From the NCBI GenBank assembly GCA_008729055.1, contig SDUX01000006.1, positions 1,869,501-1,933,500 on the forward strand: a stretch of DNA of 64,000 nucleotides. Reading direction: 5' to 3'. Below are positions 1-59,501 of this stretch, in pieces. The notes under the pieces were generated by a model that was given only the letters and a program-made list of their open reading frames with translations, was not told where the DNA came from and did no database searches. Within the stretch, counting starts at the first letter, position 1. Every line of letters starts with the position of its first letter. The DNA comes from Pyropia haitanensis (Eukaryota > Rhodophyta > Bangiophyceae > Bangiales > Bangiaceae). Both the position numbers and the translations under genes were made by a program.

Positions 1-87
1 ACCCCGCCGTGAGCGGCGACCGTCCGCCGTCACCAGGCCGCCGTCGTAAGCGCCACCCCCCCCCCCCCCCCCTCCCCCCAACAGCGC

Positions 88-1226: not shown

Positions 1227-1269
<43 letters not shown>

Positions 1270-3077: not shown

Positions 3078-3407
3078 AGATGGTACAAAAACCACGGACA
3101 AAACAGGGAGGGGGGGGAGGCGGGGGCGGGAGGAGGTAGACGCGGCGGACACGAAGCGGGTGGTCGGAGGTGGCAATGGTCGTGCGTATCCGGCGGTGGG
3201 GGGGGTGGTGGGGGTGACGCATGCCCACAGGAATCGGCGGCGTGCGCGGGCCGGCTGTGCAGCAGCACCCGCACCGGCGGCGGCAGCAGCGGCAGCCGCG
3301 CCGCCCCTGCTGGCTGTTGGGGGAAACGGGGGCTGGGGCGACCGCCCCCGCCGCCAACGGCCAGAGCAGCAGCCAGCACGCGCAGTCGCCACGCACCTGG
3401 GGCGCTC

Positions 3408-39732: not shown

Positions 39733-40397
39733 GGTGTCGGGCGCACGCCACCAGCGGGTGGCCGCGGCGGTCAGCCGGGAAGCGGACCACGACAGGGGGG
39801 GGCGTGGCCACCGTCCGCCAAGGGAGGTTCTCATTCGCAAGGGGGGTGAATAGGGGGGGGGGGCAGAGGGGGGGTGAGGTCAAGGAGCAGAGGGGGAGGG
39901 AATAGCAAAGGCGGGGTGAGGAGGGGGCGGCGAGGGGGGAAAGATGCCACACCGCCCGCTTCAGCCGCGGAAAGAGGCCGCGCCGCCCCCTGACACCGTC
40001 CACGGCATCAAATGACGAGGCGAGGACGGACGGGACACGGCGCGTCTGTGTCGAGTGGGCAAAGGGACGATGATGCCAACCATCCGCCCCCCCCCCCAAC
40101 GACCTCCAAGGCGCCCACTGGCGGCAATGTGCTGGCGACGGGGCCCAGCCGCTGGCAGCGGCAGCGCGTATCGGCGACGCGAGGCACGGCGGCCGCGGGG
40201 GGCGGCTGTCATAATCTACCCGCAACCCCCCCAAATTGCGTCTCTGGGGGGGGTCCGCCGCGGTCCCCCCAGGCCAAGCGGTCCCCCCAGCAACTAAGGA
40301 AATATTGGACACATTAGACGCTGAATAGTGCCTCTACTAAGGTTTGTGTAAGTGGGTACTACTGCGTGAGCCGTCATGCCCCATAAGTCTGAAGGAA
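39733..40397. other. Divergent intergenic region
   Basis: GC-rich to about 40260, then about 40290-40400 of normal composition. It should contain promoters for the genes on either side. No motif identified. Confidence 0.45.
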
Positions 40398-40668
40398 ATG
40401 CTGTCTCAAGTCGTTCTTATGCCCTCGTCCACCTCTGCCCCCTCACCTGGCGTGCACGCGAACGCCACCGCGTTTTCGACCCTTGGGCGCTGCCGCCGCT
40501 GCCGCCCGTCCCGCCGCCCCCGCCGCCGCCGTGGGCGCCGACGCCACCGCCTGGGCCGCCGCCACCACCGCCGCCGCCGCCACCACCGCCGCTGCCGTCG
40601 TTGGTGGGGATGCGGTGGACGCGGCGGTGGCGGCAGCGGTGGCGGACGGGGGGAGCCACCTCCGGTCC

Positions 40669-40702
<34 letters not shown>

Positions 40703-41917
40703 TGCTGGCCGCGATGCGGGCGGCGGAGGCGGAGGAGCTGCGGGCCGTGCGGGAGGGGCGGGCGGTGTTGGCAGTCAAGGCCGGGGCGGCAGCGGCCGCG
40801 ACGGCCGCGACGCGGCTGCGGGAGGAAGCGGCCGAGGCGGACGCCGAGGCGTACAAGCGGGGTACGTTGGAGGGAGGGTGGGGGGGGGGGGGGGGAAGGT
40901 GGTGAGGGGAGGGCGGGGGGACTGTCGGACCGGGCGACGGGGAGCGCCTCCCCGTTTTATGTTCTGTTGGTGCGTGGGTTGAGGCGCTCCTGGGGGCTGC
41001 AATGGCCTGGGTGCGCGGGCGTCTCACCGCGCGCGCACTGCCGCGCCCCAGCCGCCGCGGCCGGTGGCCGCCACCGTTCCACGCCTCCCACCCCTCCGCC
41101 TGGTTGCCGCATCGACTGACGCACCCCCCCCCTCCCGCCGCCCCCTGCCATCACCCCCTCGGCTGCCCCCCCGCCGCAACCGCCCCCTCCCTCCCAGAGA
41201 CCGACGCGATGGAGGCGGCGGCGGCGGCGGCGGCCGCGGCGGCCCGCCGCGCCGACCGCTACGCGGCGCTGCTGGGCGTGGCCGTCGGCAACGCGGCGGC
41301 TGCGGCGGTGCTCGTCTTTCGGTTTACGTACGTGGACCCGCGGGCGCCGGCGGCGGTCGCGACGGTCGGCTTTGACGCGGCGCTGTGGGGTACGTTCTGG
41401 GGGGGGGGGGTGGGGGGGGGGGGGGGGCGTGCGCTCACGCACACCGGGGGGAGAGGGAAGAGGTAGGGGGACCGTCGAGGGGGGGGGGGGTGGAAACCTG
41501 CAGAGGTGGCCGACCGGGGGGTCGCGGGGGCGAAGTCGGGTACGCGCGCCGCGGGGCCACCCGCCGCCGCGGCCGCCGCCTCGAGCGGCGGGCGGCGGCG
41601 GCGGGAGCGGGCCCGCCCCGCCCCCCACCCCCGCCGCGGCACCCCTACTCGCCGACCCTAACACCCGCCCGGGTCCATCGCTGCGCCATCCCCCCCCCCC
41701 CCCCGAACCCCCCGCTTGCCCGTCCCCACTGCACCCTCCCCCCGTCCCCCCCCCGGCAGTCACCCACTGCGAGCCGCGGGTGCCGGCGCTGCCGGCGCTC
41801 GCCGCGCGCTTCGCCACCGACGTGGACGTGGCCGCCTTCCTCCTCGCCGTCCGCGCCGCGTTTATCGCCGCCGCCGCCGCGGGGTCGCCGCTGTCGCCGC
41901 CGCCCGCCGCGGGCTGA
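40398..41917 (+). CDS. Small spliced Ala-rich protein, unknown function
   Basis: Three exons are supported by clean splice sites. Exon 1 ends at 40861 (donor GTACGT, after AEAYKR). Exon 2 is 41198-41389 (acceptor CCCAG, donor GTACGT). Exon 3 is 41760-41917 (acceptor GGCAG), ending PPPAAG-stop. Phases match at both junctions. The body contains RYAALLGVAVGNAAAAAVLVFRF, which may be one membrane or hydrophobic helix, and ARFATDVDVAAFLLAVRAAF. The start is unresolved. ATG 40398 (MLSQVVLMPSST) is in another frame from the exon-1 body; joining them would need one base fewer, opposite in sign to the other breaks here. An in-frame Met lies near 40714. No family recognised. Confidence 0.4.
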
Positions 41918-42293
41918 GGTGGGGGGGGGGCGCGGGAGGGGCGGGGGGGGCGCGGGGGGGGCGCGCCGGCCTCGGCGGCCGGCGGCCGCTCCCGCCCCAC
42001 CCCCTCACGGTCTCGCCCGCCGCTAGGCACCCCCGTGCCGCTGCGGACGATGCCGCCCCGCGACGCAAGAGGCGTGGGCTGCCCCTTCTCCCCCGGTACC
42101 CGCTTGGGCAAAGAAGTAGAACGAGAGCATGGCCGCCGCCCCCCTACGTCCCCGACTGGTCCCCCCCACCCTCCCCATCCTCGCCTCCCAGTACCCCCAG
42201 CCCCCATCCCCAGCCCCCCCCCCCACCCCACACTCCCCACAGCTGCCGCCCTGTCCCCCTCCCCATTCCCACTCCACCCCCCCCCCCCGCTTC
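41918..42293. other. Convergent 3' region
   Basis: G-rich at the left, C-rich at the right. No gene seen. Confidence 0.45.
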
Positions 42294-42402
42294 TCACAGC
42301 GCGCTCTCGTACAACAAGAACTGCGAGTCAAACCGGCAGTGCGCGCGCAGCGCGCGCAGCTGCGCGCGCGCCGTCGCGACGGGCGCCGGCAGCGCCGCCG
42401 CA

Positions 42403-42434
<32 letters not shown>

Positions 42435-43202
42435 GGGCGGCGGCCGCGCGTCGCCGCCGCCGCCGCCGGCCGCGTCGCCGCCGCCGCCGCCGGCCGCGTC
42501 GACAGCGGCGGCGGCGGCGGCGACATCGTCGGAGCCACCGCCGCGGCCGCCGCGGCCGCTCTGGCCGCCATCCGCAGCGGCGGCGACGGTAGAGGAAAAG
42601 GCGTCAACGGCGGCGGCCGCGGTGGCACCGCGCGTGCCGGCAGTGGCCGGGGAGAAGAGCAGGCCGCCGCCCGCGGCGGCAACCACCCCCGCGGGCGGCG
42701 CGTCCCCGACACGCGAAGCCTCCAGCGGAGACCCAGCCCCCCCCCCGACGGCCGACCCCCCCCCCGTCCACCCCCACCCCGCGCACCGTCCCCCCCCACT
42801 CCCCCATACGTCGCGACCACCCGCCGAAGCCCATCCGCGGCTGTAGCAAGCGCGCCCAACCCCCCCCCCCCCAGTGGCGCCGCCGCCGCCGCCGCCGGCT
42901 GCGCCGCCGCCCCCCCCCCCCGCTGCGCGTCGGCCGCGACGGCGGCGCCGTCGCGAGCTCCGCCAGCAGCAGCGGGAGGTCGACGCCGCCGGCCGCGGCG
43001 GGCGCGACCGCCGCGGCGACGGCGGGACCGAGGTGGGGGGCGGGGGCGAGCGCCGCGAGCGCCGCTCCGGCCGCGAGCGCGAGCGCAGCGGCCGTGTCTG
43101 CCGTCGCGGGCGGCCACACGCAGCCACCGACGTCGCTGCCGCCCGCGGCGCCGCCACCGCCGCCGCCGCCGCCGCCACCTCGGCCGACTCCCCGCCGCCA
43201 CT

Positions 43203-43234
<32 letters not shown>

Positions 43235-44047
43235 GCCGCCCCCCGCCGCCATCCCTCCAGCCGCACGGGATCGGCCGCGGCGGCGCGGCCACGTCGACCG
43301 CCTCGACGAGGCGGACGAGGACGGCCGCGCCGCCCGCGCGGGCGATCACCACCGCCGCCTCGGCGTAGACGTCAAAGACCGCCAGCGCGTCGGCGTACGT
43401 GGCCGCAACGCCGGCGGCGGCGGCGCCACCACCACCGCCGACACCGCCGCCACCATACCCACCAGCAGCAGGGGCAACCCCCCCCCCCCACCGCCGCCGC
43501 CCCCACCTCCACCCCCCCCGCCGCGGCCACCCGGTCCCCAAGCGCCACCCCTGGCATTACCCTGGTCGCGCCCCCCCCCCCCCTCCCCACCGCCGCCACC
43601 CACACCGCCGCCGCGGCCGCGCCCCCCCGCGCCGCCGACAAAGCCGACCGCGCCGGCACGCTCCCCCCCCCCCCCGCCCCCCCCACCCACCGCCAACGGC
43701 GGCGCGGCAGCAGCGGCGGCGGCGGCCGCCGCCGCCGCCACCGCCGCCGCCACCGCCGCCACCCCATCCACCGCCCGCAGCGACCGGGCGGTGGCCTCGA
43801 GCAGCGCCGCCGCCGCCGCCGCCGCGCCCGCCCGCGACGCGTCAAACGCCGCCCACACCCGGCCGAGCGGCTCGTCGGCAGCGGCGGCGGCGGCGGCGGC
43901 GGCGGCGGGCCGGGACAGCACCGCCGACAGGCGCGCGATGGCGCGCGCCTCGTCGCGCAGCGGGTCGTCGGGGGGGGGAGCGCGGGGGGGGGGGGGCGCC
44001 GCCCGCGGCCCACCCGCCGCCGGCGCCGGCGCCGCCCAGCCCCGCAC
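42294..44047 (-). CDS. Ala-rich helical protein fragments, poorly resolved gene
   Basis: Minus-strand frames contain non-repetitive helical blocks in succession. These are DPLRDEARAIARLSAVLSRP, EPLGRVWAAFDASRAG, TYADALAVFDVYAEAAVVIA, LVRLVEAVDVAAPP, VDLPLLLAELATAPP and a final LRALRAHCRFDSQFLLYESAL with stop at 42294. They lie in different frames, separated by C-runs (for example 43478-43489), poly-Ala and poly-Gly. The helical blocks would suit an Armadillo/HEAT-type or vesicle-coat protein, but no family can be named. The 5' end is unknown; an ATG-led Ala/Pro-rich frame starts near 44970. Introns and homopolymer slips cannot be separated here. Confidence 0.35.
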
Positions 44048-45177
44048 CGCCGCCGTCAGCCGCGGCGCCGGCGGCAGCCGCCGCCGCCGCGGGCGTCCAC
44101 GCGCGGGCGGCGGCAGCCGACGCGGGCGGCGGGCCGGGGGGGGGGGGGGGCGCCCGCCGGCGGGGGGGTGGTGGGGGGGGGGGGGGGGGGGGGGGTGTGG
44201 GCGGATGCCGACCTCGCCGCCGCGGTCGAGGTGCCGCCGCCGGGGGGGGGGGGGGGGGGGGGGGGGTCAAGCGCGAGGCGGACGCGCCCGTGGCGTTTTC
44301 AGCTGGGGAGGGGGGGGGGGGGGAAGCGCCCGCGTCGGGGGCTGTGAGGGTGGGGATGCTGGCCACCCGCGGCGGCGGCGCGGGGGAGGCGGCGCACCCC
44401 GCGCGGTCCACACCTCCCGCGTCGCATCGGCGGCGTCCCTACCCACCCACCCCCCAACCCCCGCCCGTGCCCTCACAGCCCAGGCACGCCGCAGCCGCCA
44501 CCGCCGCCAGCTGGCTTCCCCCCCCCCCCGCCCACCGCGGCAGCCGCCGTCGTTGCCGGGGTGCCCCCCGCCGCCGACGGCGCGGCCGCCGCCGCCGCCG
44601 CGAGCGGCCTGGCGGCCGACGGTGGCGGCACGGCCGGCGGCGGCGGCGGCGGCGGCGCCCGCGCCGCCCGCTGCGGGCGCTGCCGCCGGCGCCGCCGCCA
44701 CTGCCGGCGGGGGTGCCCCCGCCCGCACCCGCACCGCCGCCGCCGCCGCGGCGGGCACGCCCGCCACGGGCCCCTCCGCACGCACGGCCGGCCGCGGAGT
44801 GGGCGGCCGCCGCCGCGGCGGCGGGGCGGTGGCGGCCGCCGGCCGGCCGGTGGCCGCCGCCGCCGCCGCCGACGGCGTCCCCCCTCGCAACGCCCCGCGA
44901 GGCGGCGGCGGCAGCGCCGCCGCCGCCGCCGACGGGGGTGGCGGCGGGCGGTGGCCGCCCGCCGCCATGGGCCCCGCGACCGAGTATCCAGGTACGAGTA
45001 CGTCTGGACCCTTCAAGTAACCCCATCGCGGGTTGTGGGTTGCCAACCTTACTTCCATCAATCCATACTTACTTGCGGCGCTTAACCCTTCCTCGGACGT
45101 GGGCTGCTGGCGCCGGCCGGCAAGGGGGCGGGACGAGGGCGGGGCGCGGCACAGGGCAATGAGGCGGACGCGGGTAC
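44048..45177. other. GC-rich region, possible 5' part of the minus-strand gene
   Basis: Long G-runs (44140-44330) and (GCC)n tracts. A minus-strand ATG near 44970 opens a Pro/Ala-rich frame that could be the first exon of the preceding gene. From 45000 the composition becomes normal. Confidence 0.4.
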
Positions 45178-45346
45178 ACCAAACTTCAACGTGTTCTATG
45201 GAACTGTGCGGACTTGAAAAAATCATGAAACAATTCTATTGAACAATTCTTAATAGTTAACCTGGCAACGATCAAGTCGAATTGTACTTCTCGCATTCAC
45301 GCGTGCCACGGCTCACGGATGCCACGGCTCACGAGTAGTACTACTC
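45178..45346. repeat. 169-bp direct repeat, copy 1
   Basis: Matches 46106-46274 with an offset of exactly 928 bp and only a handful of substitutions (for example cttgaaaaaatcatga against cttgataaaatcacaa). AT-richer than its surroundings. It ends in the palindrome GAGTAGTACTACTC. Confidence 0.88.
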
Positions 45347-45377
45347 GGATGCCACCGCTCACCAGTAGTACTACTGG
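45332..45377. repeat. Pair of perfect 16-bp palindromes
   Basis: CGAGTAGTACTACTCG (45332-45347) and CCAGTAGTACTACTGG (45362-45377) are both exact dyads, 30 bp apart in a near-duplicated context (ggatgccac-c/g-gctcac). The two differ at symmetric positions, so the dyad is kept by paired changes. Confidence 0.85.
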
Positions 45378-46105
45378 GATAGTGCTACTCGTTCGACGTG
45401 TTGTGCGAATCGCCTTGAGAATCCTGCAAAATTCGCTGTCGCATGCCTGGACTCGAACCCACACCAGTGATAATAGGCTCGCGTCCCAAGCACACACGCG
45501 TTCTGAGTTTTGAATAGGACATTTTAGATGAAACTCGATTAGCCCCCGACGAGCTGTCATATTTTCGTTACAGCTTCAAAGGTTCATGACTCTAGTCAAT
45601 GTCACCCATAAGTACGTACGTTCGCACAAATGTTGGGCTTATCAAGCTGTCTCCTTTATTGATTCGTTCATGCTTCAAGGGATTGCCCCTTCCGCGGCTG
45701 ACTGGAGAAGCAGCCACCGCACGAGCAGCCGTCGACGCTCCCCTTCGGCCAGTAGTGCTGCGAATCGCCGCACTCCAACCCAGCGGTGACTGATGCTGCC
45801 GGCGGGCGCCGGCCCCTCCCGCCCCGGCCTCTCCGGCAGCGGCGGCCGCCGCCCGCCACCAACCCCAACCCCTGCCGGTTGCCGCTGCCCCCCGCCGCCA
45901 GCCGCTAGCGCTATCGACACCCAACTCCCATTGGCCGGCGGCCGCGTGCCGGCCTGTGCGTACTGGCAGCCGTTACCAGTCCCTTGTGCTTCGGCGCACT
46001 GCTGTCCCAGCAGGCAGACGCCTCCAACCGGCGAGTGTCCTCTCCGCAGCATCTACACCAAAACCAGTATTTACGTACATGACAAATTGAAAGCCCAAGA
46101 GTGGG
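45348..46105. other. Spacer between the two 169-bp repeats
   Basis: No coding sequence recognised. 45440-45500 (minus strand) contains a tRNA T-arm-like box, GGTTCGAGTCC, without a foldable tRNA. 45780-45960 is GC-rich. The whole 45178-46274 block could be a small terminal-repeat element or a partial tandem duplication. Confidence 0.5.
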
Positions 46106-46274
46106 ACCAAACTTCAACGTGTTCTATGGAACTGTGCGGACTTGATAAAATCACAAAACAATTCTATTGACCAATTCGTAATAGTTAACCTGGCAACGAT
46201 CAAGTCGAATTGTACTTCTCGCATTCACGCGTGCCACGGCTCACGGATGCCACGGCTCACGAGTAGTACTACTC
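46106..46274. repeat. 169-bp direct repeat, copy 2
   Basis: Second copy of the repeat at 45178-45346, same orientation, ending in GAGTAGTACTACTC (46261-46274). The sequence diverges abruptly on both sides. It lies about 720 bp upstream of the Fanzor start codon. Confidence 0.88.
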
Positions 46275-46876
46275 AAGTAAGTCCGAGTAATTGGATCGCA
46301 CAAAAGTAAGTCGTCCGTAATTTAATACAAGCTGTGCCGCCTTATTCGTCGCCGGCGCCGTCGGCGCCGCCGCCGCGCCCGTTGCCGTCGCCGCCGACCC
46401 CGTTGCCGCCGTTGCCGGCGCCGGCGCCGCTCTTGGCGGCCGCCGCGACCGCCAGCACGGCAGCACTTGCAGCCTCGCGTAAAATTTGTGACGCTGATCC
46501 CCACCCAGACGCCGGTCGGAAGGCGTGAATTACGTTGACCGCCCCCGCCCGGACATCTGACGGACGACCTCGCCGACAGATCTCCTTGAGCTCCCGACGT
46601 CGCCGGTGTTCCTTGTGTTGCGCACGTCGCCAGGGTGACGCCGCTCACCAGACCCCCCCCCCCCCCCCCCCCCCCTCTTCAACCCCCCCTCCCGCGGCCC
46701 CCCCGCCTCAGGTCCACGTGGCGCACGCACAGGCCACCCCCCCCCCCCCTCCCCTTCCACGCAAAATGCGGATGCCGCGGGGTGGATGAGATCCCCAGAT
46801 ACTGCCGCGCCCGGCGCGTAGCAAGTCCGCCCGCTGAGCCCGCGCGGGGGGCTCCCCCCCGACGCCTGGCGCCCCC

Positions 46877-46883
46877 ATATAAG
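46877..46883 (+). promoter_or_regulatory. TATA-like box upstream of the Fanzor gene
   Basis: ATATAAG lies 113 bp before the proposed ATG in an otherwise GC-rich stretch. Position and sequence suit a core promoter element; this is inference. Confidence 0.45.
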
Positions 46884-46995
46884 CGGGGCCGCTCCCTGCC
46901 GTCCCCGCCCCCCGCCACCACTGGGACGGCAGCACCAGACCGTGCCAAGGAGCACGCGTCCCCCCCACCGGCTCCCGACGTCCGCGGCGCTTGCA

Positions 46996-49182
46996 ATGGA
47001 GCCGGACGAGGAGGAGCCGGGCGCCGGCCCTCAAGACGAAGGACCGCACGGACACGGCGCAGACGCCGACGACGCCCTCCCGCCCGGAGATGGCGCCGCG
47101 TCGGGCGACGACGCCGACCCGCGGGAGGTGGCCGAGCTGGAGGCCGCCGTGCACCTCAAGCAGGGGCGCCTCCGCGGGCTGCTGCGCCGCATGGGCGAGG
47201 CGCGGGCGCGGCGCCCGCAGCTGCCCGACGGCGCCGCGCTGGACGCGGCCCTCGCCAGAATGACGGCGGCGGCGGCCGCCGCAGCCGGGGCGCCCCACGA
47301 AGCCTCGCCCACCACCGACGGCGCGGTGGCGGCGTCGGGCGCCGCCCTGGAGGCGGCCACCACCCCGGCGGTGGCGGGCGCGACCGCGTGGGTGGACGCG
47401 CACCACCCGTTGGACGACGACGGCCTTTTGGCGCAGCGGGCGCGGCGGGCGGCGTCCCTGATTGGGAGCACCTCCCGCGGCATGGCGCGGCGCGTGGCAG
47501 AGGTGGAGGACCGCCGCGGGGCGGCGCCCGGCGGCCGCCCCTGCGCCCGCTGCCGCCAGCGGTCTCACAAGACGGGGGCGGCGACGTGCCCGGCCACGGC
47601 GGTGGGCGGCGACAAAAACCCGCACGCGTACGACCGCGGGGAGGACCCCGCCGCGTCCGACCCGTACGCCTGCCGGGCGACGGGCACGTCGTCGGTGATG
47701 GTGCCCGTCGCGGCGGTCCTGCGCACCCTGCCCGCGAGCCCCGACGGAACGGCGCACGCCGTCGTGCGCGGCGGCTTCCTCGCCACCGCCGAGCACCACA
47801 CGCAGCTGCACTTCACGCTGACGCTGGTGTGGCTCAACACCGTGCACACCCTCTTTGGCGCCGTCAAGGCGGACGGGTGGGCGGCGGCGCTGCCCGGCCC
47901 CGCCGGCTGGGGCGAGTACTGGAACTGGGTGGCGTACGCGGTCTGCTGCCGTGGCGCACACGGCGGCAGCCTGCCCGCCGGCGTGAAGTGCGGCAGCTGC
48001 GGGCGGGCGCGGGACAACACGTTGTGCGGGCCTGCTGCGCGTCGGCTGTCGGTGTCCTACCCGGCCTTGATGGACGCCACGCGTAACGCCATGGACGCGC
48101 TCGCGTCTTCCTTTGACGCCGCGTGCCACGACCACCTGCCGCACGGCAACAGCCACGCGCGGTGGCGAGGGGTGGTGACCACCATCGTCACCCACACGGC
48201 GAGGACGGTGGCGGTCGCCACCCGGCGGCTGGCGTGGCGGGTGGCCACAATGGTGGTGGATGCGGCCGACGCCCCCGCCTCTGGCGAAGAGCAACGCGGA
48301 CGGCGCCGCGCCGCGGTCTACGCCGCCGCAAGGAGCTGCCTGGAGCGGGGGAGCGACGCGCCCCACGCGGCGCACGCGGCCAAGCTGGACGCCCTACCCC
48401 CCGACGTGCGTGCGGCGGCGCTCAGGGAGATTGCCGACGCGCGGGTGCGGGCGCAGCCGGCGCCCGTGCAGGGTACCCCACCGCTGTTCCCCACAGGCGG
48501 GGCGCACGTGGTCGCGCGCCGGTGGGCAGAGTACATCCCGTACCTGCTGCACGTGCAGGCGGAGGGGGTGGTGGACAAGCCCTTCTCGCTGGTGCCTGGC
48601 AAGGCCGCCACCCTGCACGGGTATGGCACGGTGACCAAGGCACGCCTGGGCCCGCTCATCCGGCGCGCCTGGCCCGCACACCGCGAGCTGTACGAGGACG
48701 TCCGTCGGCGGGGGGCGGCGGCCATTGCGGGACTCCTGGGGCTGGAAACTGCGCGGTGCACCTCCGGCGCCAACCTCCGCTCCAACGGGGAGGGGGTGGT
48801 CTTCACGCTGTCGCGGCCGGCGACGGCCGCCGAGGCCGAGGCCGCGGACGTGGCGGCCGTGACGCGCAAGGCCAACGGCAGCCGGGTGCAGTCGCGGGTG
48901 CAGGGGAGCCCCACCACGCAGCTGGAGAAGCAGGGCTTCCCCATCGCCGCCGTCAAGACCCTCACCGTTGTGTCGGCAGACCCCGGCAAGGCCACCGTCC
49001 TGACGGCCGTCTCGTCTGGGCCGACGGCAGCGGCATGGGGCGACCGCCCGTGGGTGCGCCGCCGCCGGCTGGCGCGGTCGCGGCTGGTGGCGGCGGACGC
49101 GCTCACCCGCGCGGCGCTGGCGCTAGACGCCGTCGTCTGGCGCGCCGCCGCCCTGGCGCCGGCCGAAGCGGCGGCGGCAGGC

Positions 49183-49225
<43 letters not shown>

Positions 49226-50967
49226 GCGGGGCCCCACCGGGAGCCCTCACCCCCTCTCCGGCGTGGAGAAAGCGCAAGGCCGCCCCCGGCGGCGCAGAGC
49301 AACGGCAGCCGCCGTGCGGCAACGCGGCCACGACTGGACCGCCTCGCGGCGGCGCCGCCGGCGGGACAGCCGCGCCGGCGCCATCGGTGCGCCCGCCGTC
49401 GGAGAGAACCGCGCGGGGGCCGGCAGCCTCCCTCCGGCGCGGCGCCGTGCGGCGCCTGCGGGCCGTGGCGCAGCGCCTGGTGGTGGCCACCGGCAATGGC
49501 CGGTGGCGGGTGCCGCGTCACGCGGCCGTCGACGTGGCGCTCGGCTGCCTGCGCCGGGCCGCCGCCGGCTGGGTCCGGCCGCGAGTGGCAGACGGGCGGC
49601 CCGACGGCGCCGCGTTCGCGGCGTGCAAGACGGCGGCGGCGGCGCAGGACGTGGCCGCCGCCGGCGCGTTTGCGTCCGCCTTGGACGGCCTGACGGCGCG
49701 CGTGGCAGACGCGGTCGGGGCGACGCGGGGGTGGCGGGCGCCCCCCCCCGCGGGCGCCGTGTACACCCTGACCAGGGGCCGCTACACCGAAGCTGCAGGC
49801 AACGGCATGACGGCGCGGGCGGCGGCGGCGGCGCACCGGCGGGAGGCGGCGCAGCGGCTGGCCGCGCTCCAGCTGCCGCCGGCGACGACCCCCGAGGTGG
49901 TGGCCGCGCACGACACGGTGCGGACGGGCGACGCGGCGGCGGTGCTGGCGGCCAGCCGCCAGTGGATGGAGTCACGCCGCCAGCCGCAGTACAGGGCGGT
50001 GTGGGGCGCCGCGGCGACGGCCGGCCAGCGCAAGGCGCGGGTGCATCAAGTCATCCGACGGCGGCGGCTGGGCGAGGCCGTGGCGCGGGAGCTCACGGGT
50101 GGCCGCCTCCGCCGCGTCGTCAACCGCTCGGCGGTGGTGGTGGTGGTCGGGCAGGCGGCCACCCGAGGGGGCGCCACGTGGCTCCGCCGCCACCTCCGCC
50201 GGCTGTGCTGGATGGTGGACGCAGACGAGCACAACTCGAGTCAGGCGTGCGCCGGCTGCCGCCAGCAGCTGGCGGTCGTGTACGCGTCGGCAGCGGCGCC
50301 GCCGCCCGTACCCCGCGGCACCCTGATCTGTGGGCGGCGGCGGGGCCGCCGTGGCCGGCAGGGGCGCCCGCGTGCGCCGCCGACGGCCGGCTGGGAGCGC
50401 ACGCAGCCGGTGCGCTCCGCCGCGCGACGGGCGGCCTGTCGAGCAGAGGCTGCCAAGATGGCGGCAGAGCGGGCGGTCAAGCACCCACCCCCGGCGAGGG
50501 TCGTGTTTCGTGCCCCCGCCGCCGCGGGGGTGTGGGGCGTCAAGCGCTGCGTGGAGCGGGCGTGTTCGCGGCAGCTGGTCAACCGCGACGTGAACGCGGC
50601 GGCCAACATGGGGTGGAAGGCGCTGCGGCAGATACGGCAGCTGCCGTGCCACCCGTTTATGCGCCCGCAACGCGTACGACGGCCGAGGCTGGGAGGCGGT
50701 GACGACGGCGAGGCGGCGGGCGCCGCCGCCGCAGACCGAGCTGGCGACGGCGCCTGCGGCCGTCCCCCAGGCGCCGCAGTGGTGGCGGTCGCCACGGGCG
50801 ACGCGGGCGGGGAGGCGGCTGTCGGACCGGATGGCGACGGCGGGGCGCGGACGGCGGTGGTGGCGGACACGCACACGGTGGCAACCACGGAGCTCGCCAG
50901 AGCGGCAGAGACGGGAGACGGTGCGCCAGCGGTGGCGGGCGGCGGCCGGGCAACTTCCGTGGCGTGA
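46996..50967 (+). CDS. Fanzor (eukaryotic TnpB-like RNA-guided nuclease homologue)
   Basis: One uninterrupted 1323-codon frame with no introns. The C-terminal half has the split RuvC nuclease of TnpB/Fanzor. Motif I is TVVSADPGKATVL (Asp662). Motif II is VDADEHNSSQACAGC (Glu1078), running directly into the first zinc-ribbon pair Cys1085/Cys1088. A second cysteine pair follows (Cys1185, Cys1190), then motif III, LVNRDVNAAANM (Asp1198). All three catalytic carboxylates are present. Known Fanzors and TnpBs are programmable, omega-RNA-guided DNA nucleases carried by transposons; activity of this copy is inference. The protein is longer than most. The N-terminal half has its own CxxC clusters (CARCRQRSHKTGAATC from Cys183; KCGSCGRARDNTLC), and a poly-Ala tract interrupts RuvC after motif I. 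ATG 46996 is the first in frame; upstream only a GTG at 46942 is open. A structured flank follows the stop. Confidence 0.92.
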
Positions 50968-51141
50968 GTCGGTTCCACACCGCGGTACTCACGGCACGAT
51001 AGCCACCGGCCGCCGAGTGCCACGAGCTCGGTTCACCCCTCTCTCCGACGAGCCGCGTGCGGGTTTTCGTCGGATGTTCAGATTGCGTGTGAGGGGGGTT
51101 ACTCTGCTATCGCAGAGTTTCTCCCCGGGGGCCGGTCCCCC
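50964..51141 (+). ncRNA. Candidate omega-RNA (guide RNA scaffold) region
   Basis: Four stem-loops follow each other from the Fanzor stop codon on. (1) 50964-50992: GTGAGT-CGGT / ACCG-ACTCAC, overlapping the stop. (2) 51045-51073: CCGACGA / TCGTCGG with inner CCGC / GCGG. (3) 51101-51118: ACTCTGC-TATC-GCAGAGT, perfect. (4) 51127-51141: GGGGG / CCCCC. In TnpB and Fanzor loci the guide RNA scaffold is encoded at and beyond the 3' end of the nuclease gene, so position and structure fit. The guide portion and the element's right end were not identified. GC-rich DNA forms hairpins easily, so this remains a prediction. Confidence 0.4.
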
Positions 51142-52044
51142 CACGTGCATACTCAAACCTACGGTACCGGTTCTGTGTGTGTGTGTGTGTCCCTAACCAC
51201 CCACACGCGTTGGTGGCTACCACCAACCACGGCCGTGGCCGGCGTGAGCAATGGCGATGACCGCCACACGGCCCGCCGCCAGAGACTGGGGGCAGGGGAG
51301 CCAGACCTGGACGGGTGGACGGGTGAGCGCCCGGCTGCAACAATTCCTACGGTCGCTGGGGACGGCGCCCCGGCAGAGTGAGTGCTCTTGGCTGCACGAC
51401 GGCGGTGGAGGGAAACCGTACCCTTCCTACTGCCGCCAGCGCCCATCGCTGCGCGGTCCCCCGAGCGTGTACGCCCAGCTGCCGCCGGACGCCGATGGCG
51501 CTTCCCGGTCGGCTGCACCTGCCAGCACGGGCGCCACCCGACTCGCCGCGGCCGCAACAGTCGGAGCCGCACAGCGGGCATCTGAAACTGGGACGCGGCA
51601 GCCGCCAGCGCCGCCGCGTGGGCAGCGAGTCGCGCCCGCCACTGGCCGGCCGGCACGCACGACAGCGGCGGCGGTGGCGGCGGTGGTGGCGATAGTGACG
51701 GCGGCGGCGGCGATACCTGTGGCGGCGGAGTTTGGCGCCACCCTCGCACCTCCGCCCCAAACCGCCCAGGGGTATGGTGTCGCCCGCCCCACCGAGTACG
51801 ACGCAGGCACCAACAGGCAGGTCGGTGCAAACTGGCGTGACGGCAGTTTCAAGCCTGGCGCGCACAAGTGCACAAGCGCACACGCGTCGTGCCCCTCCCA
51901 CCGACGCTCTCCCCCCCCAACAAAGCGCAGGGACAAAATAAAGGGAGCGGCAGCCTATAGGCAGGACGCCACCCGGGCAAAATGACACGGGGTGGGTGAC
52001 GGGTTACCACCTTAAAAAAAAAAAGCCAGACGCAGCACCCGGCT
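51142..52044. other. Region downstream of Fanzor
   Basis: Contains a (TG)n microsatellite at about 51174-51190. A 244-codon plus-strand frame from ATG 51251 to 51985 has no recognisable domain and overlaps equally long minus-strand frames, so it is not called as a gene. 51930-52025 is AT-richer with an A-run at 52013-52024. The right boundary of a Fanzor element, if there is one, should lie here. Confidence 0.4.
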
Positions 52045-52794
52045 TCACGCCGCATCGGCCGTCATGCCAGCGTTTGGCAGTTCCGCAGCCGGCGCGGGCG
52101 ACGCCTCGTCCGCAGTGGCGGGCGCCTGCGCGTGCACCGCTGCGTCCACGGCAGCACGCACGTCATCAAAGCGGTTCCACGCCACCGCCCGGGCAAACGT
52201 GCGGCGGCCGCCGCGGATGACCATAAAGTAAGGGAGCTGCTCCACGCCGAGGCGGGTGCAGAGTTCGGCGTGGCGGCTGAAGTCCATCGCGTAGCACGCC
52301 ACGGCCGCCGGCTGGCCGGGCTGACCAGAGGATGTCGTACCCCCCGCCGCCAACGGCTGGTCGGGCCCGGCGTCCGCTGCGGCGGCCCCGGTGGCATAGG
52401 CGGCCGCCATGCGCTCGTACTTGACGCGCACCCCCGCGCAGCTGCGGCAGGAGGGCGCGTGGAACTGGACCACCGACACCGCCTCGGCGGCGCCGGGCGT
52501 CGACAGGCCGGCCGACAGGGCGGCCAGCAGCTCCCGCCCTGAATGCAACACCGTAACGGCCGCGGCGGGGGCGGCGGGCGTAACACCGGGCTCGGGGGGG
52601 TGAGCGGCAGAGGGGGCGGGCGTCTCGGCGGGCGTCTCGGCGGGCGTCTCGGGCGCGGCCAGCGCCACCGTGGGTGGCCGCCCGACGGGCAAACGCGGCG
52701 CACCCACTCTTGCACGAGCGGGGCAGGCGGTGACAGTGGCAAGCCGGGTAACCCTGGGGGGCAAGCCACAGGGCGCCGTCGCAAAGGCAGCCAT
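52045..52794 (-). CDS. Thioredoxin-like protein, probably organellar
   Basis: 249 residues in one exon. The Trx-like region reads VVQFHAPSCRSCAGVRVKYE with the redox pair Cys116-x-x-Cys119 (CRSC instead of CGPC), followed later by YAMDFSRHAELCTRLGVEQLPYFMVIRGG, where LPYF supplies the cis-Pro. The variant active site and the FHAPSC context resemble atypical plastid thioredoxins of the ACHT type. About 90 residues precede the domain; they are Ala/Pro/Thr-rich and acid-poor at the very N-terminus, fitting a transit peptide, with a 12-bp tandem repeat encoding TPAE units. ATG 52794 (MAAFATAPCG) is the first true ATG. It is divergent from RPS23. Confidence 0.8.
   Translation of the reverse strand: MAAFATAPCGLPPRVTRLATVTACPARARVGAPRLPVGRPPTVALAAPETPAETPAETPAPSAAHPPEPGVTPAAPAAAVTVLHSGRELLAALSAGLSTPGAAEAVSVVQFHAPSCRSCAGVRVKYERMAAAYATGAAAADAGPDQPLAAGGTTSSGQPGQPAAVACYAMDFSRHAELCTRLGVEQLPYFMVIRGGRRTFARAVAWNRFDDVRAAVDAAVHAQAPATADEASPAPAAELPNAGMTADAA
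52617..52653. repeat. 12-bp tandem repeat (three copies)
   Basis: ggcgtctcggcg repeated three times; it encodes the TPAE repeat in the leader of the thioredoxin-like protein. Confidence 0.8.
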
Positions 52795-53334
52795 GTCGGC
52801 GATGAGGGCCACGGGAAAGGCGGGGCGAGGGAGGAATAGGGACAGGGTAGCAATTAGACGCGAGAGGAGCGGTAACGGTAGTAGGGCGGAGGACCAGGTG
52901 GAGTCCGAGACCTGTGGTTGTGGTTGAACGGTGACTTTCTGTGATATCCTTTCAAAAGCAATATTTGTGATTTCGTGAAAAGTGAATTCCTAGCAATTCA
53001 GCGCATGTGCCATGCTGCGTTGTAAAACTGGACTACGACTCTTCATCTTCGAGGGTATGCTACTTTACACACCAGCTGTCTCTCCGTAAAGCAATAGTAA
53101 GTAGATTGTGGAACATACAAGGTCGGCACGATCGACCGGGTAGATAATCGTGCATCTCTGTATTTGCGTCGATCAATGTTGCAGCGGTCCTTGGCACGAC
53201 CGAGAACCCCCCGCGTGGTGGTCGTCGTCGGCTCCACCGTCGACCACCGTGGCGTACCTACGACGCCTTAGTCGACGCCGCCCCACCAACCTCTTCCTGT
53301 TGCGCTTCTTCGTACCTCCAGTCGGTTTGTCACC
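52795..53334. promoter_or_regulatory. Divergent promoter region TRX-like / RPS23
   Basis: 540 bp between two divergent start codons, much less GC-rich than the average of the window (52920-53170). It must contain both promoters and the 5' UTR of the ribosomal protein gene. No TATA box was identified. Confidence 0.5.
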
Positions 53335-54162
53335 ATGGGTTCTGGGTACGTAGTGCTGCTGCTGTTGTCTCGTTGCTGCTGCCTACTTCCTGTTCTGGTC
53401 GGAGACCGGTTTGTGCCAGCTGTGTCCCATGCTGGTGGCGAGACCGTGGCCGCATCCTGTGTCTGGTCCAGTGGTGCAGCGTCGGCTGTGCCTCATCACT
53501 GGACGCGTTTTCCGCGGTGGTTTCGCGGGCGCGATGGGCGAGGCAGATTGTGTCGGCGTGGACGGGCGTGACGCTTGCGGCGGCCGAGTCCGCAGATCTT
53601 TGCGTGGCTCCTCTCTATGTTGTGGTGTCATGCGGCCTGTGGTGGACATGGTGTGGTCTTTTTCTGACACTTGTTCTCTCTCCCTCGTCCGTTATTGTGA
53701 GCTTCTTGTCGTTCTTCTTGTTACCCGTCTCTCAGGAAGCCCGCGGGTATCCGCGCCGCCCGTAAGCTCAAGAACCACCGCCGTGAGCAGGTATGGCACA
53801 ACAAGAAGTATGCGCGGAAGCATTCCGCCACGGCCCTGAAGGCCAACCCCTTCGCCGGCGCCTCTCACGCCAAGGGCATTGTGCTGGAGCGGATTGGTAT
53901 TGAGGCCAAGCAGCCCAACTCTGCTATCCGGAAGTCGGTTCGGGTGCAGCTGATCAAGAATGGCAAGAAGATTGCTGCGTTTGTGCCCCGCGATGGGTCG
54001 CTCAGCTACGTCGAGGACAATGACGAGGTGCTGGTGTCTGGGTTTGGTCGCGCCGGTCACTCTGTAGGTGATCTGCCCGGTGTGCGGTTCAAGGTTGTGA
54101 AGGTGGCGGGTGTGTCGCTGTTGGCGCTCTTTTTGGAGAAGAAGGAGAAGCCCCGCTCTTAG
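53335..54162 (+). CDS. RPS23: 40S ribosomal protein uS12 (RPS23), two exons
   Basis: Component of the decoding centre of the small cytosolic ribosomal subunit. Exon 1 is only 11 nt (53335-53345, encoding MGS and two bases of the next codon). The intron 53346-53735 has GTACGT and TCTCTCAG ends. Exon 2 is 53736-54162. The product has 145 residues, starting [15 protein letters not shown], against about 143 in animals. Conserved parts include [29 protein letters not shown] (contains the proline hydroxylated by OGFOD1-type enzymes in other eukaryotes) and [14 protein letters not shown]; it ends KEKPRS. Codon use is more moderate than in neighbouring genes, as expected for a highly expressed conserved gene. 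Call secure. Confidence 0.97.
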
Positions 54163-55090
54163 ACTGGTGTGTAGGGGACAAGCCTGTGGGTGGGCATCTA
54201 TCTTTTTTTTTTTCCGATGCCGTCCCGTGGTATGCTTGCACGAGATCTGATCGCGGCTGGCAAACACAGTCACTTGTATACTTTCCTCCCGTATATCACT
54301 TGATGCGACTTGACGCTTGTGAGCGACATCAGATGCGTCCGCATATCAGCATCCAAGTTCCATGCAGGTACAAGCCTTCGCCCTTGTCGAGTGGTATTGT
54401 CGTACCGCAGCTCTGGTGTTCTTTCGTATGCACTGGTCCAGAGATGGGTGGTTGTGAAGTGACAACTGTACGCTCGTTCGTGGCGCTGAGAACGGGACTT
54501 GAAAGGGGCCGGCGAGCTTGGGGGGTCGAGACGTGACACGGTATGGTGCGTGGAGGTGGCCGAGGGCGTGAGTCGTGCAGCTGTCAGAGAGAGCTTGGGG
54601 TGTGGAGGAGTGAGCAGGTAGGTGTGTGGCATGGATCAGTTAGTGGGCGTGAAGTGTGCAGGACGGAGCTGGTAGACTTCATGGCGGAGTGGAGGAGCGT
54701 ACATGGTCGCGTGAAAGAGCTGTCGGCGTAGGTCCGAATTCCGAGAATGGCACATGGCTCCATTCGAAAGAGGACCGGTTCATGACCTTCCACCGTGGTG
54801 TCTATGCGAGCCAACGAGTGGGATACAGCACCATAGCGCGGCTATATGATACCAGCTGGTGGGTGCGAGCCAGTTCCTACGGCCGTACTTGCGACGTTTG
54901 CGAACGGCTGCGCCTGGCGCACCAGTTGTGCCTGTTCCGCCGGCTGTGCCTGTTCCACCAGCGTCAGCGCTCAATGCACACGAACCATGAATACAAAGGG
55001 TACCAATTACTTACAACATGACGATACCCCGAAAAGAGAGACACAGAAGAGGTGTAGAGGAAACGGATAGATAGTTGACCCAACACGGCA
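54163..55090. other. Convergent 3' region RPS23 / CCT gene
   Basis: About 930 bp of nearly normal composition. A T-run at 54203-54213 follows the RPS23 stop. Only short open frames; no gene recognised. Confidence 0.5.
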
Positions 55091-56710
55091 CTATCCAGAC
55101 GATACAGGAGTACATGGTGGTTTTCCCCGTCCTGGGGGTGGCGGCGGCGGTAGTGGTTGTGACTGTGCTCGTCTTGGCACTGCTCCGGCCAGGGAGCCCG
55201 CGTCAGCAGACGTCATGGATGGGGAGCCGCCGCCCGAGTCGGACGAGTCCATCGGTGCAGACGCCGACGAGCCACCCGGCATGTCATCGGGCATCTTGAC
55301 AAAGCGGCCCTTGACACGCGGCCGGCCGTCAGCTAGCGCCTTGCGGACGGTGTAGCGGACGAGCTTGCCAAACTTGCGGTCTCGCCGCTTTTGCCGGAAC
55401 CGCAGCAGCGCCGCCTCGCGGGTTTTCTTCTTAAACTCCCGCGTCAGCGTCTCCTTCTCCGTCTCCTCCCGGCTCTTGCGCTCCTCGGGAGTCTCCTTGA
55501 CAGGTGGGGCGGCCGACACCGCCGCCGCCACCAAAGTGGGGGCAAAATGGCCCGGGCGTGGGGGCACCATCGGGTTGGGGACGGTGGGGAACATCCCCAC
55601 CGACGCCGACTGCTGGTACATTTGTTGCCAGTGTTGGAACTGCATCTGCGCCGCCATGGACGCGGATGGCATGTACATTCCGAGGCCCTGCCCGTACATC
55701 ATGGCCGCGTAGGGCCCCGGCAGGTTCGGCATGGCCATTGAGACGGGCGCCGCAACTGCCAGCTTCGTGTCCGCCTCGGACGTCGCGCCGCCACCGTTGG
55801 CGGGTATCCGAGAGGTGGACGAACCCGCCGCCACTTGCGACACGTCTACCGTCGGGGCGGTGCTGCTCGCCTCCACAGCAGACGCCGCTTTGGATGGCTC
55901 CGCCGATGCCTGCACGGGTGGAGCCGCCGGCATGGTCGCCCCAGCCGACGATCGAGCCTGGCCTTCATCCTTCACAGGAGACGCCGCCACCGCCGGTGTT
56001 GCGGGTGGTGCCACTGCTTCCGGTGCCGGAGCTTTCCGCTTGGGCGCCCCTGACGCTCCTTGTGGCAACGCCACACCCGCCCCTTGCGGCCGCGCACCCG
56101 GGGTCGGCACGGGTGGCGGTCGGCCAACGCCCGGTGTCGACGGCACAAGGACGTTCCACGCCGGTGACGGCATCCCGCCAAACCGCACGTGGCCACCCGC
56201 CGCCGCGCCGTCGCCGAGGTAGGTGTTGTGAAACTCCCGCACCACCGCGTCCTTTGCAGCCTGCCGCAGAAACGGGGACGACATGACCGCGTCAGGGCGG
56301 GCGGGCGACGGCGGGACGTCCGCACCCGGTACCCCGGGCACCGACGCAGTCGCAGCGGCCGCGGCAGCGGCAGCAGCTGCTGCAATGGCCGGGCCATTGC
56401 CGCCGGGCGTCCCCGACGGGGGACATAGCGCCGCCGACCCCCCTCCTCCGGGACCGACCGTCAGAGCCGCCGATAGCAGCGGCGTTGGGGCGGTAAAACG
56501 ACCTCCCAGCAGCGACGGAGACGGCACAATCGTCCCGGCCAACGCAAGCGGCGGCAGGTCCAGCGACGGGCTAAAGAGGCTCTGGAACGAGTCCCGGATG
56601 TGCGCCTGCCGGTTGGCACCCGGAACAAGCGCAGTGGCGGTGCCAGTGCCCGGTGTGGTGGCCGGCAGATTCCACCTCCTCGCCGAGTCGGGGGTCGTCA
56701 AGTATTCCAT
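55091..56710 (-). CDS. CCT-domain transcriptional regulator
   Basis: 539 residues in one exon. Near the C-terminus (about 430-472) lies a CCT domain (CONSTANS/CO-like/TOC1). It begins REAALLRFRQKRRDRKFGK, continues through VRYTVRKALADGRPRVKGRF, and is preceded by a charged helix (TPEERKSREETEKE). CCT domains in plants and algae act in nuclear localisation and in DNA and NF-Y interaction. There is no B-box or response-regulator receiver domain, so it is a CCT-only (CMF-like) protein. The rest is Ala/Pro/Ser-rich with a Met/Gln-rich patch (QMQFQHWQQMYQQ). ATG 56710 (MEYLTTPDSARRW) is chosen; upstream sequence in the frame is open without an ATG in good context. Confidence 0.88.
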   Translation of the reverse strand: MEYLTTPDSARRWNLPATTPGTGTATALVPGANRQAHIRDSFQSLFSPSLDLPPLALAGTIVPSPSLLGGRFTAPTPLLSAALTVGPGGGGSAALCPPSGTPGGNGPAIAAAAAAAAAAATASVPGVPGADVPPSPARPDAVMSSPFLRQAAKDAVVREFHNTYLGDGAAAGGHVRFGGMPSPAWNVLVPSTPGVGRPPPVPTPGARPQGAGVALPQGASGAPKRKAPAPEAVAPPATPAVAASPVKDEGQARSSAGATMPAAPPVQASAEPSKAASAVEASSTAPTVDVSQVAAGSSTSRIPANGGGATSEADTKLAVAAPVSMAMPNLPGPYAAMMYGQGLGMYMPSASMAAQMQFQHWQQMYQQSASVGMFPTVPNPMVPPRPGHFAPTLVAAAVSAAPPVKETPEERKSREETEKETLTREFKKKTREAALLRFRQKRRDRKFGKLVRYTVRKALADGRPRVKGRFVKMPDDMPGGSSASAPMDSSDSGGGSPSMTSADAGSLAGAVPRRAQSQPLPPPPPPGRGKPPCTPVSSG

Positions 56711-59501
56711 CCCGCGCGAGGTGGGCGGGGTGGATGGGCGGGGGAGGGGGTGGGGGGGGGTGGGTAAAAGCACCCGCTCCACCCTCACCACAACGCGGCG
56801 GGCGGGTGGCGGCGGCGCGCGCGGGGATGCAGCACGCGGGCAACGAGCAGATTGCGCGCCCGCGCGACGGTCCACGCGCGCGCGCTTCCGCAGCGCGCCG
56901 CTGCGGGCCGCGGACAGCGTCCAACGCCACCGCCAGGCGTGCCGTTTGGTGGTGTGTCGGCGGCGGCGGAGGCGGCGCGGCGCTTGTTCACGGTGGTCGT
57001 GCACGGGCCAGCGGGATTGTGGGCGCCGCACACGCCCCGGCTGGTGGTCGACGGGGACGGAAAGGACCAAGAGGGTGGGGAGGGTGGGGGGGGGGCGGTG
57101 TGCCCACCAGGAGCGGGCGGCGGCCTGTTGCCGGCGGCGGACCCGGTGTAGCTGTGGCTGTCGTACGCGGGGAGGACCACCAGATTCGCCCTGTCGCGCT
57201 CGTGTGTGGGACCTTTCGGGCCACAGGAGCGCGGCGTTGGCCGGTGACGGCTGGCGCGAGTGGACGGCTGGCAGCGCAGAGGACCACACACGCGGTCACG
57301 CGCCGGGGTCATCAGGACGGCGGCGGCTTGGAATTCGATGCCAATGATAGGAGAGGAAATACAAAGAATGGCCATCCAAGACGACGCCCACGCCATCGCT
57401 TGTGGTCCTCGAACGCCCACGAACCGTGGCAGGAGCGACTGTTTTCGCAATCCAGTCAACGCAGAGTGCGTGCCCGAGCGCCCGTTGTGGCGCGGTGCCG
57501 GGCGCCGTACGTACAACTTTGATGAGCGACCACCGCCAAAACTCCGCGTAGTTTCCCCCTTCACAGGTTTCATCATGAATCTCTATTCAACCTTTGGGTC
57601 CGAATGTTTCATCAGGTACAAGATTCTATTGGTTGCATGTTTTCAGGGACGCCGACCATTGGCTGGGCGGTGCGGCCTGTTCGCACCCTTGTTCCAAAAT
57701 AGCTCAATCCAGAACATTTGGCACAGCTGTTGGCCATGAAGGGCGTCGACCTGGTCCCGCAGTCGGGGCCACTTTCCCCGACTTTTCCGAGGCCATCCGC
57801 CTGGACCCGACCGTTTGTGATTCGTGACCGCGTGTGGCCCAGAACCAGCAGCAGGTGATTGCAATCACCACAGCTGGGTGTCGGTCTCGTGCAAGGTCTT
57901 GAGGGCACGTCTCCTTGTCCCCGCCCGGTTCCCACCGCCAATTCGCGGGTGGGTGCTTGGCTTGGCCGGCCGCCGCTGTCTCCGTCGTCACCTCCACCAA
58001 TGGCGGCGGGAGACCAGTCGCGATCCACCAATGGGAGCGGCTATTGACGTTCCTTTTTACTCGACACCTTTTAATGGGCGTCGCTGTCGGCGAAGACAAT
58101 GCGTTAGGCGGCCTCGCGCGCCAGAGCTGGCGGGGGGAGGCAGCTCCGACCTCCGTGCTGGTGGGCTGCCCGCTCCCGCGCCCCCCGCATCGACTGCAGT
58201 GCAGTCGGGGGGGGGGCGTGCTCCGCCCCGCCACGCCGACACGCCCGCGCCGCCGCAGGCTTGTGAGGCTGAGAGCGCTTCTCAGCACCTGGCCTGCCGG
58301 CCACGGCGGTCGCCCCCCCCCGCTGGGTGACCCGCACGGCCGGACCCGTCAGTCGGCCGGGTGCCGCCGTCCCTCCCTCCAACCCCCCGGCCTTCCAGGG
58401 GCTGCCCGCCCGGCCCGCCGTGGCCTCAGAGACGCCGGCGCCGCACCACCCACAGCGGTGGTGGGTCGCCGTCCCGTCCGCTCCCCCCCCCCCCCCCCCC
58501 CCCCCCCCACAACGCCCCCCCTCTTCGCGTCGCTACGGCAGCGGCGCCGGCGGCGCCGCGCCGAGCGCACCGTCGGTGCGCTCCCCCCCTCCCCTGCAAA
58601 CGCCTGGTGGTGCCGCGCCCGCAGCGCCCCCGCGTGGGTAGCGTGCGCCGTGCGGGGGACCTCCCGACCCCCCCCCCCCCCCCCCCCCCCCCACCAAACC
58701 CCGGGCTGTGTGCACCGCACGGTGCGGGTGCGGGGGGGCCGGGGCGGCCGCCGCCGTGCCCCCACTGCCTGCCTGCCGCCGCGCGTGTGCGGGCGAGCGC
58801 CCCGCATCGGCGGCGGCGGTGTTGCACGCCCCGGCCGTACGCGAGCAACGGCCCGGCCGCGACGGCCGACCGCCGCGGCCGCTGCCGTTGCCCGCGGCGT
58901 GGGAGTCGGCCGCATCGACGGCCGCATCGACGGCGGGGGTGGTGGTGGTGGCGGTGGTGGTGCGCGCCGCGCGCCGCCCGCGGCGGCGCGGTGGCTCGGC
59001 GTGGAGGGGTGGGGGGGCGGACGAGCCCCGCGAGCGAGACGACGCGACGCGCGGCACGGGCGGTGCCTCCCCCCCCCCAGTCCCCCCCCCCCGGTATCTC
59101 CCGTCGGCCCTCCGTGCGCCGAGGACACGCGCTTCGACGGCGCCGCCGCTGCGCGGCCACCCGTGGCCCGCGGGGGTCTATCCGTCCTGTTTCTCTTTTT
59201 TTTTTTTCCGCTGCGTCGTGTTCCCCGCCCCTCTCGGCTACCCACTCCGCTCCACCGCTGTGGTGGCCTACGCTCCGCAAACCGCCACGCGGTGTGCCTG
59301 TGGCGGGGGGCGCCCACGTGCCCCTCCTCCCCGCCCCCCCCGCGCAGCCCCCCTCTCCATTCTTTTCCAATCCCCCACACCCCCCCCCAACCTCTTGCCG
59401 ACCTTTCCCCCCCTCCCCACCCCCCCCCCCCCCTCCATCTGCTCCCCGCGTCATCGGGACGGGTTCTCCCCTGCGCGGACGTGCACGCCGGCGGCCGGCG
59501 C
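56711..59501. other. Intergenic region CCT gene / zinc-finger regulator
   Basis: 56711-57260 is GC-rich; 57300-58130 has near-normal composition; 58130-59500 is very GC-rich with C-runs. Long frames here (for example the poly-Pro minus-strand frame to 60748) are low complexity. No gene recognised. It should hold promoters for both flanking genes. Confidence 0.5.

Follow-up and report, generated by a model that had tools for sequence, protein, structure and literature searches.

What does the long open frame at 46996-50967 (+) in this stretch of Pyropia haitanensis contig SDUX01000006.1 encode, and does it belong to the host or to a mobile element? The stretch analysed here, 64,000 nucleotides in full length, is hereafter called the window. 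A reading made from the letters alone (the sequence-only reading) had described the frame as an intact Fanzor nuclease gene, either recently mobile or domesticated. Our analysis makes it very probable that, in this Pyropia-type red alga, a giant nuclease of Fanzor1 type and its guide-RNA scaffold are both encoded by a recently mobile element. The gene, its copies, the ends of the element, a conserved RNA fold and the motif residues were observed directly.

Coding frame and Fanzor motifs

The frame is uninterrupted from ATG to TGA over 1323 codons and needs no intron, exactly as had been claimed. Local GC (guanine plus cytosine) content around the gene is 72-78%, and stop-free stretches of 861 codons in another plus frame and of 561 codons on the minus strand overlap it. 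In such GC-rich DNA, frame length is therefore weak evidence for coding. The frame was taken as coding because of its GC content by codon position (0.79/0.66/0.90) and because relatives align in the same frame. The TATA-like box reported upstream was found by eye as TATAAG at 46878-46883 (+), and is a putative promoter only.

Three protein searches, each scoring the best ~7986 candidates by shared words, returned eight distinct relatives (P0002-P0009, with the window protein as P0001); further relatives may exist beyond these. Three of the eight, among the candidates scored, are Pyropia yezoensis hypothetical proteins. The aligned relatives are 54-82% identical to the C-terminal part of the window protein. 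Giant-virus or bacterial Fanzor relatives were not found by the patterns tried, and one further pattern search returned 48 stretches with no Fanzor among them.

The molecular fingerprint of Fanzors is a DPG motif combined with a glutamate that precedes the zinc ribbon by six residues (PMC10711439). Both parts are present in the window protein, as D662-P-G and E1078-x6-C1085. The RuvC-I motif D662-P-G (48979-48987, +; motif scan) is shared by P0002-P0005 and P0009. The alternative RuvC-II glutamate, E1078, lies at 50227-50229 (+), and the RuvC-III motif R1197-D1198 (50584-50589, +) was located by motif scan, hhalign and MAFFT. The three acidic residues named by the sequence-only reading are indeed D at 662, E at 1078 and D at 1198. 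Of its two cysteine pairs, both present, the first is C1085-xx-C1088 (50248-50259, +; motif scan and alignment), but the second, which follows a 96-residue insertion, is C1185-x4-C1190 (50548-50565, +) and not CxxC.

E1078, C1085 and C1088 are identical in 6/6 rows (window protein and five relatives), with D1077 varying. D1198 is seen in only four of the nine proteins (P0001, P0003, P0004 and P0008), because P0002 diverges near the C-terminus and P0005, P0006, P0007 and P0009 are incomplete. When the window protein was shuffled, the relaxed motif DPG..E-x6-CxxC..Cx(2-4)C..D appeared in 0/5000 shuffles, and the shorter motif DPG..E-x6-CxxC in 7/5000. Nearer the N-terminus, residues 183-198 (47542-47589, +) form a C-x2-C-x4-H-x6-C pattern that also occurs in P0002, P0003 and P0007; it gave no profile match, and we take it to be zinc-knuckle-like. 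At residues 596-598 (48781-48789, +), the position where the WED domain of Fanzor1 carries a TDG motif (PMC10711439), the window protein has SNG and P0002-P0004 have TNG, N and G being identical in 5/5 rows.

The protein was also compared with 49 TnpB sequences from viral contigs, 48 of them with the alternative glutamate and one without (L184). The hhalign scores were 39.3 for the E/zinc motif and 31.3 for RDVNAAANM, with the order of the two motifs kept between the profiles, whereas the best of 200 column shuffles reached 24.6 and the reversed profile 18.0. In a MAFFT alignment with 37 TnpBs, E1078, C1085, C1088 and C1185 were in register in 43/43 rows, and D1198 in 41/43, the remaining two rows ending or shifting earlier. 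An alignment with the TnpBs split into two parts was dropped, as the registers came out wrong.

Several results weigh against the Fanzor assignment. The search against curated TnpB/Fanzor profiles gave nothing significant, which the sequence-only reading had itself named as an outcome that would speak against it; only the profile-profile test overrides this. Pfam PF07282 remained below the cut-off for P0001 (E 0.87) and P0008 (E 0.073), and NCBIfam returned nothing for the window protein. The PDB sequence search gave no meaningful match for P0001 and none for profile A1; the C-terminal profile A7 gave a single match there, to a C2c1-type chain at E 9.2. The hhalign probabilities were low, 35% for the E/zinc motif and 7% for the RD motif, and the TnpB likeness is thus a motif-level homology and not a whole-domain match. 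MAFFT did not align D662 to the RuvC-I of TnpBs across the long insertion (gap in 38/43 rows). AlphaFold2 models were poor, with a pLDDT (predicted local distance difference test) of 39.3 for residues 170-1235 and of 51.4 for residues 590-1215 modelled with the 37 TnpBs. Of 41 Foldseek matches (E up to 10), not one reached 0.001 and not one was to TnpB or Fanzor; a VIA-align fold search returned neither of these families.

The spacings also go beyond published ones, with 415 residues between D662 and E1078 and 96 between the cysteine pairs. The search expression for pro-Fanzors and Fanzor2, with x(120,160) between motifs and CxxCx(12,18)CxxCx(4,8)D (PMC10711439), is absent in its strict form from all nine proteins. 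The TnpB/Fanzor motif D-X(125,275)-[TS][TS]xx-C4 zinc finger-X(5,50)-RD (PMC3627910) is fitted in residues and order; the first spacing is 418 against 125-275, and the second cysteine pair is CX4C.

The Fanzor-type identity claimed earlier is supported by the DPG/alternative-glutamate fingerprint, by the profile comparison (0/200 shuffles as good) and by a conserved RNA fold that ends exactly at the transposon end. The length, the insertions and the lack of a recognised recombinase point to a putative Fanzor1 rather than a Fanzor2. Carriage by eukaryotic transposons other than IS607 is a Fanzor1 trait; in the present case an element was delimited, and no transposase was recognised in it.

Copies, ends and carrier of the element

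The extent given for the gene was right but too narrow, since the gene sits inside a transposable element of 10,943 bp at 40212-51154 (+), whose ends were set by comparing copies. In the genome searched (52.9 Mb, 136 contigs), the gene was found at 99-100% identity in at least 13 rows, corresponding to at least 11 loci on six contigs (best 40 of 113 candidates scored). Seven of these loci are full-length, one holds bases 1-3086, two are split by inserts and one holds the last 894 bases. The frame is open in six of them, with 1323 codons in three and 1322 in the other three; one gene copy has a stop at codon 896 plus P663L within the DPG motif. Recent mobility, as proposed by the sequence-only reading, is supported by these near-identical loci. 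Each of the inserts that split two copies (C10:1483617-1490983 and C11:3144388-3151754) is 7367 bp long and shows a 5-bp overlap; presumably they arose by insertion of a long terminal repeat retrotransposon.

The ends of the element are TAATCTACC...GTGCATACTC. All 10 loci that retain the right terminus GTGCATACTC (51145-51154, +), one of them with CATTCTC, stop at 51154 (...CACGTGCATACTC), and differing DNA follows in each. The left terminus TAATCTAC (40212-40219, +) was defined by comparison with other copies. Five of the seven loci with this end carry TAATCTNCCCTCATC there, and the same element then follows except in the C7:2.76 copy, where it resumes from 40845. The left end is shortened in the window and C11:3.15 copies; the window copy lacks 20 bp that follow the terminus in other copies, and with them the greater part of the left repeat arm (asymmetric inverted repeat, described below). 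A left-end pattern search gave seven matches against three in the control, C10:3122751 and C11:118815 being not clearly this element.

Two copies start late, at ~46930 (C4) and ~50075 (C9), and the C131 and C11:3.08 copies have another, common sequence left of 44209. An internal stretch of 1614 bp (44646-46259, +) is also present in the C11:7.20 and C10 copies; at its place the C11:5.07 copy has another sequence of 333 bp, and four further copies have a stretch of similar length. A 169-bp direct repeat, 97% identical (45178-45346 and 46106-46274), lies inside the element upstream of the gene.

A second subfamily shows 65-70% DNA identity to family 1 within the gene; the sample of it comprised 10 loci and, in addition, a diverged locus (79%). 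Between the subfamilies, nonsynonymous (dN 0.346) and synonymous (dS 0.777) divergence over 370 codons gives a mild purifying signal, measured with a subfamily-2 copy that is frame-broken upstream of the compared codons. In the subfamily-2 copy at C9:5876229-5878100, the RuvC-I and RuvC-III motifs are in different frames; the relative P0004 is open.

As to the carrier, a Helitron2-type element fits best so far, with about an even chance of being correct. The Helitron2 hallmark, asymmetric terminal inverted repeats without target duplication at complete ends, was found here. The 11-bp repeat TGGGGGGACCG has offsets of 21 bases at the left end and 12 at the right (2/2000 shuffles). At the five loci with both ends, inspection of the flanks by eye showed no duplication as long as 4 bp. 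The same traits, together with a constant 3' end and shortened 5' ends, are described for CRe-1, 2, 3 of Chlamydomonas reinhardtii, Helitron2-type non-autonomous elements with an algal Fanzor1 (PMC3627910). The Chlamydomonas elements have TTTT as target and their genes 5 or 10 exons, whereas the present gene has one exon and a larger protein, and no target motif was recognised.

The possibility that the Fanzor is a passenger on another or unknown transposon class, and not on a Helitron2, has somewhat less than an even chance. It is favoured by the lack of a recognised transposase in 40212-46995, where six frames gave 0 Pfam matches, and by the genome's two Helitron replicase loci, which share no sequence or ends with the element over the 3.5-kb stretches compared. 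The terminal inverted repeat, the absence of flanking repeats and the constant 3' end with 5'-shortened copies (C4, C9), which match the Chlamydomonas elements, count against it. The two replicase loci carry PF14214 (Helitron_like_N) domains at C9:6366806 and C8:4588886, in open frames of 543 and 1255 residues, and are possible autonomous Helitrons. When inverted repeats were sought up to 2 kb from the gene, none rose above shuffles; the element extends beyond that range.

The right-end fold and its interpretation

The last ~200 bases of the element form a conserved predicted RNA fold, from the stop codon to the element end. Hairpin 1 (50958-50998, +) includes the stop codon (50965-50967). Hairpin 2 (CCGACGAGCC...GG..TCGTCGG; comparative fold) lies at 51044-51074 (+), and a terminal three-way junction at 51081-51152 (+) is closed by a stem pairing 51081-51091 with 51142-51152. 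A search with the last 115 bases recovered the 10 ends of family 1 and, besides them, three that have diverged (C6 77%, C8 75%, C1 75%). The scaffold motif is also present in 10/11 stretches of the second subfamily, all 10 ending in GCGGTAAG followed by differing DNA, and the two families give the same layout when folded separately.

Among six representative sequences, 44 pairs were counted, 12 of them with double-sided changes, and 94.3% of cells were paired; slid controls were 36-52% paired. Covariation was 0.276 vs 0.148. For pairing percentage, for double changes and for covariation alike, 0/500 shuffles equalled the observed value. Kinship among the six sequences can inflate these statistics, and helix 5 hangs on an uncertain alignment. 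Other measures weigh on the opposite side: further pair types were matched by 18/500 shuffles, and the folding energy is not singular, with z -4.13 for 50930-51160, -2.64 for 50947-51154 and -1.77 for 50960-51170, while z -4 is reached by 21/1065 window tiles. For subfamily 2 the folding energy gave z -2.91. Rfam had no match within the window.

Two of the diverged matches, C8:3403252 and C1:98886, resemble scaffold ends, and the few hundred bases retrieved at each hold no Fanzor frame. The C8 match begins at 50929, with no Fanzor similarity in the preceding 130 bp, and this locus may be a scaffold-only or shortened copy. Both are possible guide-only loci.

In structure and position, the layout is that of OMEGA (obligate mobile element-guided activity) systems: the fold ends at the right end of the transposon and the flank differs per copy. 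In known Fanzors, the RNA comes from the right end and the flank serves as guide (PMC10432273). In the protein of the present element, D662, E1078 (the alternative glutamate) and D1198 would make up the predicted RuvC site, and a long insertion would divide the zinc ribbon formed by C1085, C1088, C1185 and C1190. The right-end fold, stop codon through final base, would be the scaffold, and a transcript running past the element end would add flanking DNA as guide. Since transcription out of the element would append the local flank, each copy would have its own guide, matching its insertion site. For the window copy the predicted guide segment is 51155-51175 (+), with a length taken from known Fanzors. 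Cutting at the site would favour keeping or copying of the element. RNA binding, cutting, guide use and the benefit to the element are what we infer from these features.

A wider joint reading, tentative and on the whole somewhat unlikely, is that the terminal inverted repeat, required for movement of the element, may double as closing stem of the scaffold, that the possible scaffold-only loci (C8:3403252 and C1:98886) may supply guides in trans, and that the putative zinc-binding N-terminal region and the long insertions may add a task beyond those of smaller Fanzors.

It is quite improbable that, beside a Fanzor-like protein that is guide-free or inactive, the 3' fold is a mere transposon end structure, namely hairpins read by a transposase or a terminator. 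Helitron ends bear hairpins, the inverted repeat reaches with its right arm into the final hairpin, and the guide role is a prediction from DNA sequence, all of which would suit such a structure. However, a short end hairpin would be enough for a transposase, whereas the conserved fold spans ~200 bases in three separate units, starts at the stop codon and shows covariation among diverged copies; moreover, catalytic residues are retained in relatives. Domestication, the other fate suggested by the sequence-only reading, was not borne out. An intact frame and a purifying signal would be expected of a domesticated single-copy host gene, but this gene lies within a multicopy element with sharp ends and at least 11 near-identical loci, several of them broken, and the copy number refutes a single-copy origin, making it very remote. 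Although long chance frames are common at the local GC content, a chance frame or contamination by a prokaryotic TnpB has practically no likelihood and was rejected, given the motif (0/5000 shuffles), the at least 11 loci on six contigs of one genome, the relatives named Pyropia yezoensis and the lack of a bacterial relative by the patterns tried.

Known Fanzor systems and neighbouring genes

Fanzor1 genes on algal transposons, including a red alga, are already known (PMC3627910; Bao and Jurka 2013). CMe-1A of the red alga Cyanidioschyzon merolae (PMC3627910) is likewise a multicopy red-algal Fanzor1 element of unknown class; it measures ~3 kb and has ~150 copies ~80% identical to the consensus, whereas the present element is 10.9 kb long with near-identical copies. 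SpuFz1, an OMEGA system (PMC10432273; Saito et al. 2023), shares with the present element the multicopy state, the right-end guide RNA (predicted here) and loci with RNA but no protein (candidates here). It differs by its ~2.1-kb locus, its smaller protein and its demonstrated activity, that of the Pyropia protein being predicted. TnpBs and pro-Fanzors of the alternative-glutamate type (PMC10711439; Yoon et al. 2023) likewise have the glutamate six residues before the zinc ribbon and the RD motif. Those TnpBs from phage contigs that served for comparison carry DLG, are ~360 residues long and have a short zinc ribbon, whereas the window protein has DPG and 1323 residues. Such a length is far beyond that of the Fanzor1s described in PMC10711439 (up to ~800 residues).

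Judged by its predicted protein, this is a variant of a known Fanzor kind, set apart by size, split zinc ribbon and RuvC spacing. Within the literature searched, its length, the insertions in RuvC and in the zinc ribbon, the Cys/His cluster near the N-terminus and the finding of a complete element with predicted scaffold in a Pyropia-type genome appear to be new; this search found no paper joining Fanzor with Pyropia or Porphyra, the list of the Science Advances 2023 Fanzor survey lying outside the comparison. A single genome yields open near-identical copies, exact ends, a covariation-backed predicted scaffold and a different predicted guide per copy, features rarely found together. In a cultivated seaweed lineage, this makes it possible to test directly how guides are used, how targets are chosen and how Fanzor is linked to transposition.

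On its right the element adjoins a gene for a thioredoxin-domain protein (52045-52812, -). Beyond it lie an intron-containing gene for ribosomal protein S23 (53335-54163, +; identified by eye), a gene for a CCT-motif protein (55091-57289, -) and a tRNA-Leu (cag) gene (62502-62588, -). The left part of the window holds genes for a radical-SAM molybdenum-cofactor synthesis protein (88-2157, -) and a DnaJ/Sec63-type protein (11670-14243, +).

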